The notes below the pieces were generated by a model. It made no database searches and was not told the DNA's origin. It saw nothing but the letters and a program-made list of their open reading frames with translations. A stretch of 64,000 bases of DNA. Origin: Dyella jiangningensis (lineage in GTDB: Bacteria > Pseudomonadota > Gammaproteobacteria > Xanthomonadales > Rhodanobacteraceae). The stretch covers positions 496,001 through 560,000 of the forward strand of contig NZ_NFZS01000004.1 of the NCBI RefSeq assembly GCF_003264855.1. Direction: 5' to 3'. A program made the position numbers and the translations under genes. Positions 1-2,296 of the stretch are shown piece after piece (within the stretch, counting starts at the first letter, position 1; each line of letters starts with the position of its first letter).

Positions 1-431
1 TCTTCCGGCGCGTCGGTCACGTGCCACGGTTCCGGCTGCCCGGCCTCGTGGCGGTCGGTCAACCTTTCCAGCAGGCTGCGCAGCCACACGGGATCGTGGG
101 TGACACGCAGGCGGCCATGGACGTGCACCACCGCGTAGTTCCACGTCGGCACTTCGCGGTGGGTTTCCCGCTTGCTCGGGTACCAGTTCGGACTCACATA
201 GCCGTCCGGGCCGCGGAAGATCACCAGCACCTCGGCGCCGTCGAGCTTCGCTAGCTCGTTGCCGCGTGCCACGTGGCCGTGCAGCTGCGTGTCGCTCACC
301 AGTTCCAGCGGAAGGTGGTTGGCGCATACGCCACCCTCGCCCTGGGCGACCACGGTGGCGAACGGGTACTCACGCATCAGCGCGTGCAACTTCTCGCTGC
401 GCGTTTCCTTGAAGTGCGTGGGCAGGTACAT
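1..431 (-). CDS. PaiB-family FMN-binding protein (C-terminus cut by window edge)
   Basis: The 143 visible residues match the N-terminal two thirds of the PaiB/FMN-binding negative transcriptional regulator family. They open MYLPTHFKE, followed by the GPDGYVSPNWY and PTWNYAVVHVHG segments that form the split-barrel flavin site. In Bacillus, PaiB is linked to polyamine acetylation and sporulation control; in proteobacteria its role is poorly known. The start codon lies 2 bp beyond the argF' stop, so the two are probably co-transcribed, although no arginine role is known for PaiB. The remaining C-terminal third lies outside the window, at the low-coordinate end. Confidence 0.85.
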   Translation of the reverse strand, partial: MYLPTHFKETRSEKLHALMREYPFATVVAQGEGGVCANHLPLELVSDTQLHGHVARGNELAKLDGAEVLVIFRGPDGYVSPNWYPSKRETHREVPTWNYAVVHVHGRLRVTHDPVWLRSLLERLTDRHEAGQPEPWHVTDAPE

Positions 432-433
432 GT

Positions 434-1441
434 TCAGCGCTGACCGATCAGCGACGCCATCACCGCCTTCTGCACATGCAGGCGGTTCTCGGCTTCGTCG
501 ATGGCGATGCAGGCGGGCGAATCCATCACCGCGTCGGTAGCCTTCACGTTGCGACGCAGCGGCAGGCAATGGCTGAACAGACCGTTGTTGGTCAGCGCCA
601 TCTTCTGCTCGTCCACGATGAAGTGCTTGTGCGCGTCGCGGATCGGCTTTTCCTGGTCCCAGCGGCCGAAGAACGGCAGCGCGCCCCAGCTCTTCGCATA
701 GACCACATCGGCGCCACGGTAGGCTTCCTCGATGTTGTGGCTGACCTTCAGCGAACCGCCGTTTTCCTTCGCGTTCTGATAGCCGAACTCCATGTAGCGC
801 TCATCGAGCACGTAGTCCGGCGTCGGGCACAGCAGCGTCACGTCCATGCCCATCTTGGTGGCGATCAGCAGCGCGGAGTTGGCCACCGCGGTGTTGAGCG
901 GCTTGGGGTGGTAGGTCCAGGTCAGCACGTACTTCTTGTTCTGCAGGCTGCCCAGGTGCTCCTTCATCGCCATGGCATGCGCGAGCTCCTGGCACGGATG
1001 GGTGATGGTCTCCATGTTGATCACCGGCACCGTGGCGTACTTGGCGAATGCCTTGATGACGTTGTCCTGCCGATCCACCGACCAGTCCTGGAACTTCGGG
1101 AAAGCGCGCACGGCGATCAAGTCCACGTAGCGCGACAGCACGCGCGCCACTTCGGCGATGTGCTCTTCGGTATCGCCGTCCATCACCGTGCCGACCTCGA
1201 ACTCGATCGGCCACGCGTCCTTGCCCGGCGCCAGCACGATGGCGTGGCCACCCATATGGAACGCACCCAGCTCGAAACTGGTGCGCGTGCGCATCGACGG
1301 GTTGAAGAACATCAGCGCCACGGACTTGCCGGCCAGCTGCTGGCCGCGAGGCGAGCGCTTGAAGGCGGCGGCCTGTTCAAGCAGCGCATCGATCTCGGCG
1401 CGGCTGTAGTCCTGGGTAGTCAAGAAATGGCGGAGAGTCAT
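434..1441 (-). CDS. argF': N-acetylornithine carbamoyltransferase
   Basis: Carbamoylates N-acetylornithine to N-acetylcitrulline in the acetylated arginine pathway found in Xanthomonas-type bacteria, in place of ornithine carbamoyltransferase. The 335-residue length fits. The carbamoyl-phosphate loop reads SMRTRTS (residues 49-55) where ordinary OTCases have STRTR. HPCQ is at 148-151, with a Glu at 144. HCLPLRRNVKATD spans 291-303, and its Lys300 matches the carboxylated lysine of the Xanthomonas enzyme. ATG at 1441 is the only sensible start. The other arg genes that often cluster with it in Xanthomonas are not here; PaiB follows at once. A strong terminator-like hairpin precedes the gene, so attenuation is possible. 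Confidence 0.93.
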   Translation of the reverse strand: MTLRHFLTTQDYSRAEIDALLEQAAAFKRSPRGQQLAGKSVALMFFNPSMRTRTSFELGAFHMGGHAIVLAPGKDAWPIEFEVGTVMDGDTEEHIAEVARVLSRYVDLIAVRAFPKFQDWSVDRQDNVIKAFAKYATVPVINMETITHPCQELAHAMAMKEHLGSLQNKKYVLTWTYHPKPLNTAVANSALLIATKMGMDVTLLCPTPDYVLDERYMEFGYQNAKENGGSLKVSHNIEEAYRGADVVYAKSWGALPFFGRWDQEKPIRDAHKHFIVDEQKMALTNNGLFSHCLPLRRNVKATDAVMDSPACIAIDEAENRLHVQKAVMASLIGQR

Positions 1442-1480
1442 GATCGTGGATGCCTTTGTCGAATCTTGGATTCCGGAAAC

Positions 1481-1508
1481 AAAAAAACCCGGCTGCTGGC
1501 CGGGTTTT
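1481..1508 (-). terminator. Terminator-like hairpin in the argF' leader (candidate attenuator)
   Basis: Read on the minus strand, this is a 10-bp stem (AAAACCCGGC / GCCGGGTTTT) with a 5-nt loop, running straight into seven further T residues. It ends only about 40 nt before the argF' start codon, and no other annotated gene lies upstream on this strand that it could close. An intrinsic terminator in this place suggests transcriptional attenuation. The 5' arm contains ACCCGGCC (1498-1505), which can instead pair with GGCCGGGT at 1543-1550. Confidence 0.7.
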
Positions 1509-1540
1509 GTCGTCGATACACATGAAACGCGTGCGACAGC

Positions 1541-1675
1541 CTACCCGGCCGAGTGTCGGACCAGCGGTCGGCGAGCACGCGACGTCATGCCAGCGGCCAT
1601 GCGGGCGCTGGTAAGGACAGTAGCGGTATAGACGGCTGCGGACATGGGTGTTCCGGGTGGTAGAACGTTCATCAT
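1541..1675 (-). promoter_or_regulatory. Possible leader peptide ORF of argF'
   Basis: An open frame upstream of the argF' hairpin has in-frame ATGs at 1675, 1672, 1645 and 1588 and a TAG stop at 1541-1543. The last 15 codons read MTSRARRPLVRHSAG and carry four Arg codons. The last codons and stop contain GGCCGGGT, the exact complement of the terminator 5' arm. A ribosome reaching the stop would mask this segment and allow termination; one stalled at the Arg codons would leave it free to form the antiterminator. No strong Shine-Dalgarno picks the start; CGGAA before 1645 is the best. This is inference from pairing only. Confidence 0.4.
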
Positions 1676-1721
1676 GACGGGATTTTCGCTGCCATGCAAC
1701 AAGATATCGGGCCTGGATGCC

Positions 1722-1747
1722 AAAACGCCGCCCGGAGGCGGCGTTTT
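1722..1747. terminator. Bidirectional intrinsic terminator after the glycine-zipper gene
   Basis: A perfect 11-bp stem, AAAACGCCGCC / GGCGGCGTTTT, with a CGGA loop. It lies 6 bp beyond the stop of the leftward glycine-zipper gene and has A/T tracts on both sides, so it could act in both directions. It separates that gene from the argF' leader. Confidence 0.85.
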
Positions 1748-1753
1748 GTGATC

Positions 1754-2296
1754 TCAATCAGCGGGAGAAACGCTGACCCGTACCCTCAGGCGCTCGCCCG
1801 GGTCGTAGTTGAGCCGGGAGACGTACACCTCACCGCGATAGCGGTATTCGACGTCGTAACCCATGATACGACGCTGCTCGCTGACGGCAGCCACCTGCCG
1901 GCAATGCGTCTCGGTGGTTTCGTATTCGCCACCGCCCGAGCGGGACACGCTGTTGCCCACTGCGCCACCCGCCACCGCACCGGCAACCGTGGCCGCCGTG
2001 CGTCCATCGCCCTTGCCGACGGTGCTGCCCAATACGCCACCCACCACGGCACCGAGAATGGTGCCGGCGGCACTGCCTTGCGGCGGCGCCGAACGCACCA
2101 CCGGCTGGTCATAGCACTCCTGGCGCGGCACTTCGGTGCGGGCCACGCCATACACGGGATCGACGCGCAGCACGTCGGCCCACCCGTAATGGGTGTTGTC
2201 GTCGTTCTGGTATTGCTGCTGGTACCTCGCATCCTGTGCGGACACGCCGGCGGTCATCAAAGACAACACCAGCGCGGGGAACAACCATCGGGTCAC
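1754..2296 (-). CDS. Glycine-zipper 2TM-domain envelope protein
   Basis: A 180-residue exported protein. A signal peptide (about residues 1-20, cleavage after VSAQ) is followed by a polar, Tyr/Gln-rich region. Next comes a glycine zipper at roughly 75-118 (GTILGAVVGGVLGS..., then VAGAVAGGAVGN) of the Gly-zipper 2TM/Rick_17kDa-like type. A C-terminal beta-rich tail holds the EYRYRGEVYVSRL segment. No lipobox Cys is seen, so it is probably periplasmic or outer-membrane associated rather than a SlyB-type lipoprotein. Function is unknown; relatives affect envelope integrity. It is a single-gene unit with its own terminator. Confidence 0.8.
   Translation of the reverse strand: MTRWLFPALVLSLMTAGVSAQDARYQQQYQNDDNTHYGWADVLRVDPVYGVARTEVPRQECYDQPVVRSAPPQGSAAGTILGAVVGGVLGSTVGKGDGRTAATVAGAVAGGAVGNSVSRSGGGEYETTETHCRQVAAVSEQRRIMGYDVEYRYRGEVYVSRLNYDPGERLRVRVSVSPAD

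Follow-up and report, generated by a model that had tools for sequence, protein, structure and literature searches.

A candidate ribosome-mediated attenuator ahead of argF' and the arginine biosynthesis cluster in Dyella jiangningensis and its relatives

How is arginine synthesis controlled in a bacterium in which ArgR is not found? The question is raised by a 64,000-nucleotide stretch of Dyella jiangningensis DNA (contig NZ_NFZS01000004.1, positions 496,001 to 560,000; termed the window), where argF', the gene for N-acetylornithine carbamoyltransferase, is preceded by a short open reading frame (ORF) with Arg codons and by an intrinsic terminator. The best explanation, and very probably the right one, is that a ribosome-mediated attenuator controls transcription of the arginine biosynthesis cluster. 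When the arginine supply suffices, the ribosome would translate R-A-R-R, reach the stop codon, and cover an RNA stretch called segment 2, whereupon the terminator would fold and RNA polymerase would halt before argF'. When charged tRNA-Arg is scarce, the ribosome would stall at the codons CGT/CGC/CGA and segment 2 would remain free. Its pairing with segment 3 would then block the terminator and allow transcription of argF', probably along with the genes downstream.

The window holds the parts of such a switch (Table 1): a leader ORF with codons for the product of the pathway, and an intrinsic terminator between that ORF and the first gene. A first-pass annotation, made from the letters alone, had described an upstream ORF with four Arg codons, a strong terminator about 40 nt before the argF' start, and exact complementarity between the end of the frame and the 5' arm of the terminator. 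The ORF is real and ends in MTSRARRPLVRHSAG* (stop codon 1543-1541), but it is longer than was shown there; three of the Arg codons are conserved and well placed, whereas the fourth (in VRHSAG) varies and lies outside the switch. The other two claims are borne out. The hairpin AAAACCCGGC-CAGCA-GCCGGGTTTT, followed by T, lies ~40 nt before the argF' ATG at 1441, and GGCCGGGT (1550-1543) is exactly complementary to ACCCGGCC (1505-1498).

Folding of both states, simulated with an assumed ribosome footprint, is consistent with attenuation. In nascent RNA reaching to segment 3, the antiterminator has a probability of 0.99 with the A site at any of the three conserved Arg codons (R1, R2, or R3), 0.15 at the unconserved fourth, and 0.00 at the stop codon. 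The predicted energies are -25.6 kcal/mol for the antiterminator stretch and -15.4 kcal/mol for the terminator hairpin.

Judged from sequence, it is conservation rather than single-leader statistics that decides that the architecture exceeds chance. Taken together, an Arg cluster, a stop, a 7-nt complement 12-22 nt downstream of the Arg codon, and a terminator occur in this arrangement once when both strands of the window are scanned and never in 20 block shuffles, a lenient control because the shuffles yield 1.15 terminators each against 10 in the window. The fold of the whole leader has z -1.29, and Arg density is unremarkable against shuffles in four other leaders of the window's family (p 0.36-0.59) and in 25 leaders of a second family (p 0.08-0.78). 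Arg density in single leaders was rejected as proof for these two families; it says little in GC-rich DNA.

Two sets of relatives were compared. From 388 argF' relatives, 80 loci were kept, and an order-wide set of 60 argF' upstream regions was hand-chosen to span families. One locus in each was left out of the counts, L058 with just 66 nt upstream and L168 with only 40 nt. Families carry the labels of the genome search, f1 to f12, with f1 the family of the window and f2 the second family above. The usable f1-f4 leaders number 118, comprising 79 from the 80-locus set and 39 regions (f1 4, f2 25, f3 3, f4 7), and the deep set consists of 20 regions from seven families, f5-f11.

All 79 usable loci of the first set carry MTSRARR and GCCGGGTAG at a constant spacing of 16 codons, together with a terminator, and the five codons between MTSRARRP and AG* are highly variable. 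MTSRARR is likewise present in all 39 usable f1-f4 regions. Its fixed residues partly follow from the search pattern, yet no usable f1-f4 leader failed that pattern; an earlier one, RARRP, matched 33 of the 60 regions. In the deep families, a different short ORF with an Arg cluster stands before a similar terminator in 17 of 20 regions and six of seven families. These clusters, chosen by eye, include NPRRRR, ALRRRRR, VVVRRRR, and IRRRRRR. An unpicked test, four Arg within six ORF codons, was positive in 16 of the 20 deep regions versus 5 of 20 on the reverse strand, and Arg density reached p<0.05 against shuffles in 11. Over all 140 loci, 135 have a leader, 3 do not, and 2 are unusable. The trp/his-type geometry proposed in the first-pass annotation, with its Arg codons, terminator, antiterminator, and spacing, is therefore conserved order-wide upstream of argF', and orthologous leaders without hairpin and Arg ORF, which it had named as one of two arguments against attenuation, are not the general case (3/140).

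A degenerate MTSRARR pattern recovers the same position from whole genomes. It occurs at 82 places in 81 of 200 genomes of the order (f1 34/34, f2 35/35, f3 3/3, f4 8/10, and one f10 genome), the reversed pattern at one, and 79 of the 82 places sit 111-255 nt upstream of argF' on the same strand. Not assigned to argF' are G156:C90:2559-2578, a second place in G233 (G233:C59:24904-24923), and one in G113, whose argF' position was missing from the comparison; the first two lie away from argF' and could be chance or a second leader. Outside the order, none of 271 genomes of the class has the pattern (3 of 274 with it were members of the order). Plasmid records gave no match. The argF' gene itself has matches in 195 of the 200 order genomes, part of them weak and probably other carbamoyltransferases.

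The placing of segment 2 follows the Arg codons. Measured from the last conserved Arg codon, segment 2 starts 17-18 nt downstream in 82/83 f1 and 23/25 f2 leaders, 18 nt in 3/3 f3 leaders, and 15-16 nt in 5/7 f4 leaders, a nearly fixed offset, while the stop codon falls anywhere from 3 to 27 nt after the same codon. In the early-stop leaders L114, L125, L128, and L171, GCTGGG(T) keeps its position behind the stop, so the RNA element is separable from the end of the peptide. Eight of the 11 best deep leaders have an offset of 14-19 nt and the other three one of 6-11 nt. The complement between segments 2 and 3 is significant against shuffles (p<0.05) in 80/83 f1, 20/25 f2, 0/3 f3, and 2/7 f4 leaders, and in 10 of 16 deep leaders assessed (L155 was missed by the terminator pattern). 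An antiterminator that excludes the terminator, exposed by the stall and covered at the stop, is thus found in silico for the window and by spacing in the relatives, with weaker support in f3, f4, and some of the deep families.

Whether the two segments change together was assessed by swapping arms among ten families. Own pairs scored 19.6 versus 17.3 for permuted ones, with permuted reaching own in 1.2% of draws; the signal comes mainly from f1 and f9 and less from f3 and f11. In f9, segment 2 is TCTTTGG, a different sequence that matches the terminator of that family. In an alignment of the window and 22 relatives (23 sequences, the one from the window ending inside segment 3), GTCG and CGAC at the antiterminator loop are nearly invariant, and the pairing is therefore not tested by it.

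The leader changes in the manner of a coding sequence. Across the 118 leaders, positions 1 and 2 of the codons for A(-3), T, R, A, R, and R are fixed and third positions vary; 116 leaders have Gly at G(-1), the Ser codon is always TCG, and CGA serves as the last Arg codon in 115. This synonymous signature argues against a riboswitch or T-box-like RNA that would sense arginine or tRNA-Arg directly, free of translation. Such an RNA would suit the strength of both terminator and antiterminator, but no Rfam family matches above cut-off in support of it, and the RNA outside the coding motif and segments 2-4 differs between families, leaving this reading with hardly any probability.

The choice of Arg codons is restricted as well. 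CGG makes up 0 of 354 control Arg codons in f1-f4, where AGA and AGG never occur, and all three are absent from the 75 codons of the deep Arg runs, of which 26 are CGA. In the background, CGG, AGA, and AGG together account for 12.7% of the Arg codons in the 80 argF' genes, 44/134 in f10 and 22/58 in f9 arg genes, and CGA for 1.5%, 16/134, and 10/58, respectively. Because the sequences are related, binomial values for this bias are meaningless as probabilities. One inosine-bearing tRNA-Arg reads CGU, CGC, and CGA. Attenuators that favor the codons most sensitive to starvation are discussed in the accessible part of PMC1183508.

The peptide could itself be the sensor. Ribosome arrest through the exit tunnel is known from TnaC and from the fungal arginine attenuator peptide, and A-x-x-A-x-G-M-T-S-R-A-R-R might act likewise, perhaps with a ligand, so that its Arg residues would outweigh tRNA-Arg charging. 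In favor of such a sensor, conservation extends to A(-6), A(-3), G(-1), T, S, and A, none of them Arg, with third positions mostly changing, and it ends directly after RARR(P). However, the seven deeper families have different peptides with just Arg clusters in common, and the absence of CGG, AGA, and AGG indicates that codons matter. Arrest at RARR by abundant arginine would also free segment 2 and raise expression, which is the wrong sign. The peptide is unlikely to be the sensor, though the nascent chain may contribute to the control.

A transcript of this leader in relatives has already been catalogued. On the window leader, the Rfam family RF02242 (Xoo5) scores 29.2 bits (E 0.0041 in 5 kb), below its gathering cut-off of 50 bits. 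Of 20 loci scanned in relatives, 17 give a match with E no higher than 0.01, and 12, all f2, score above 50 bits, with f2 leaders matching over the full model length at up to 145.6 bits. By these matches, Xoo5 is this leader in relatives. In the accessible portions of PMC3039613, Xoo5 is a 124-nt RNA of X. oryzae between PXO_00354 and PXO_00353, detected by Northern blot and with its 5' end mapped by rapid amplification of cDNA ends (RACE); PXO_00353 is N-acetylornithine carbamoyltransferase and PXO_00352 argininosuccinate synthase. Matches to Leu_leader, rnk_pseudo, P9, sR035, and BSR0602 were each under their cut-off and were set aside.

If Xoo5 is taken as annotated, a small RNA (sRNA) acting in trans, the ORF and terminator would be incidental. 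Its discrete short transcripts change with growth phase, and Rfam files it as sRNA. Against this stand the three-base periodicity of change, the fixed position before argF', the mutually exclusive pairing, the Arg clusters in the unrelated-looking leaders of deep families, and the lack of any reported Hfq effect on Xoo5 in the accessible text of PMC3039613; an sRNA of this kind is very improbable, although the RNA may have a second role in trans. For RF02242, as matched in L119, L170, and other f2 loci, the label of a cis-regulatory leader would fit better than that of an sRNA gene.

The mapped end also bears on how the attenuator leader would be translated. The RF02242 model starts CU-AUG, which puts the Xoo5 5' end 2 nt ahead of the leader AUG and suggests leaderless translation in Xoo5-type relatives. 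A TTG is present 39-34 nt ahead of the chosen start in 44 of the 52 f2-f5 and f7-f11 leaders, compared with 1-8 for eleven windows further upstream, which fits a promoter at constant distance from the start codon and a leaderless leader mRNA in these families. In f1, a promoter-like block sits ~20 nt farther from the start, which is preceded by GGAA, and initiation there may thus be ordinary rather than leaderless. At the promoter distance, the block tgttgc...cat..t is partly kept in 79 f1 loci. The promoter of the window is putative, since a consensus scan lists none. The start codon is probably ATG 1645: its column (-19) holds ATG in 69 of 80 rows, GTG in 9, and others in 2, and additional in-frame ATGs exist upstream.

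Several observations weigh against attenuation. The complement is not significant in 3/3 f3, 5/7 f4, 5/25 f2, and 6/16 deep leaders. Covariation, sought by the first-pass annotation together with conserved Arg codons, is moderate, and the arm-swap effect is absent in f2, f5, f8, and f10, partly because GCUGGGU pairs with either arm type through G-U. Full-length RNA favors the terminator in every state (0.78-1.00), and the choice must therefore fall during transcription, as in a kinetic switch. Without a ribosome, nascent RNA prefers the antiterminator (0.98) and full RNA the terminator (1.00); the model thus leaves termination without translation unexplained. In PMC3039613, as far as its accessible text goes, the 3' end of Xoo5, taken from clones, precedes the terminator hairpin, and the bands of ~130 and ~100 nt fall short of the 159 nt counted in L119 to the end of the T tract. 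Two bands are described early in growth and one late, a difference that could be processing. According to the same portions, sRNA deletion mutants including that of Xoo5 showed unaltered growth in both rich and minimal medium. Finally, three argF' genes, L143 (f6) and L145 and L154 (f10), have no recognizable leader in genomes without detected ArgR, and therefore have neither control.

Two side observations concern these loci. L145 still has a similar terminator. In Table 4 of PMC3039613, deletion of another X. oryzae RNA, Xoo1, is listed with a 3.25-fold decrease in argininosuccinate synthase and a 1.7-fold decrease in N-acetylornithine carbamoyltransferase.

The attenuator would operate where ArgR is missing. 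The ArgR DNA-binding domain was not found in the window's genome and occurs in 8 of the 200 order genomes, all f12. Nine f12 genomes are in the order samples, the one beyond these eight being 77% complete; f12 has a weak argF' match and no close argF'. None of the 59 genomes from the window's family yielded the ArgR C-terminal domain, nor did six further genomes, including the three without leader. A broader proposal can be put forward tentatively. An old, order-wide attenuator, its promoter joined to a leaderless ORF, would replace ArgR; in four families, which include Xanthomonas-type and Dyella-type bacteria, a simple run of Arg codons would have evolved into an exit-tunnel peptide, AxxAxGMTSRARR, with a nearly fixed terminal CGA, and the nascent chain and the charging of one tRNA-Arg would be read jointly.

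Table 1. Features at the argF' leader, in window positions.
Feature	Position	Strand	Remarks
Leader ORF, 34 codons + TAG, MSAAVYTATVLTSARMAAGMTSRARRPLVRHSAG	1541..1645	-	start codon inferred from relatives
Conserved MTSRARR stretch	1568..1588	-	in 118/118 usable f1-f4 leaders
Control Arg codons	CGT 1579-1577, CGC 1573-1571, CGA 1570-1568	-	conserved
Segment 2, GGCCGGGT, antiterminator 5' half	1543..1550	-	overlaps last ORF codons and T of stop
Segment 3, ACCCGGCC, antiterminator 3' half = terminator 5' arm	1498..1505	-	
Intrinsic terminator hairpin (1508-1484) with T tract	1481..1508	-	terminator pattern in 118/118 f1-f4 leaders
Putative leader promoter: TTGCAT 1699-1694, 17-nt spacer, CATGAT 1676-1671	1671..1699	-	read from sequence
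argF', N-acetylornithine carbamoyltransferase, first controlled gene	434..1441	-	NCBIfam NF003384, 613.7 bits, cut-off 288
FMN_bind_2 gene (Pfam PF04299)	3..428	-	between argF' and argG
GC-rich inverted repeat with flanking A/T runs	1720..1748		between leader and upstream gene
Upstream gene	1754..2296	-	

Over the best segment, the argF' protein of the window shares 100% identity with its Dyella amyloliquefaciens counterpart and 99% with the Dyella jiangningensis one. Its gene heads an arg cluster in 3/3 genomes examined. In the window's genome (L176), it is followed on the same strand by the FMN_bind_2 gene (L176:7791-8570) and then argG, argE, argB, argC, and argH; the arg genes keep the identical order in L177 (f2) and the distant L181 (f9), whose ORF lists place argG directly after argF' with no gene between. 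The argB protein of the cluster is a long form that acetyltransferase models match too, and is denoted argB/A. The inverted repeat behind the upstream gene could terminate that gene's transcript; it was spotted by eye and is absent from the terminator listing.

If true, the attenuator would explain the control of arginine synthesis in a large bacterial order that lacks ArgR. Arginine would join the amino acids that Proteobacteria make under leader-peptide attenuation, and Xoo5, catalogued so far as an RNA of unknown function, would gain one. Simple reporter fusions could test the predictions that follow from three features: the near-leaderless start, the exclusion of CGG/AGA/AGG codons, and the conserved peptide. 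In the open-licence papers searched, by title, opening of the abstract, or passages, no arginine attenuator is described upstream of argF' or for Xanthomonadales. The first-pass annotation had known of no Arg-codon attenuator in this group, which holds for arginine synthesis but not more widely: an Arg-codon leader is known for speF in gammaproteobacteria (PMC6386406, in its accessible part).

That leader, from Salmonella, resembles the one before argF' in that the Arg codons of its ORF (orf34) report arginine supply. It differs in controlling ornithine decarboxylase through Rho, RNase G, and translation, with no intrinsic terminator before arginine genes in the accessible text (PMC6386406). 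The SpeFL/ORF34 core HIRRT*HIMM, found before the ornithine decarboxylase gene, is by inspection absent from the leader peptide, and the gene downstream here is argF'. The Pseudomonas carA leader likewise shows possible attenuation before an arginine- and pyrimidine-related gene, with a leader peptide reported in P. aeruginosa, but in the available sections that attenuation is linked to pyrimidines and ArgR also acts (PMC4997734). The uORFC-8-2 cysS motif and similar predictions, as partly accessible in PMC8632094, are also computational leader-peptide attenuators within a single order, yet they have cysteine codons, a synthetase gene, and a home in Rhodobacterales. Xoo5 shares the position before the N-acetylornithine carbamoyltransferase gene and the reading frame MTSRARRP...AG*; it differs in being described as an sRNA of unknown function, with an Rfam model that ends before the terminator and no leader peptide mentioned in the accessible portions of PMC3039613. 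The trp, his, leu, and thr attenuators also combine an ORF rich in product codons, mutually exclusive antiterminator and terminator, and biosynthetic genes downstream. From these, the argF' leader is set apart by arginine, by an mRNA that looks leaderless in relatives, by a protector hairpin that is not evident, and by an f1-f4 peptide conserved beyond its control codons.
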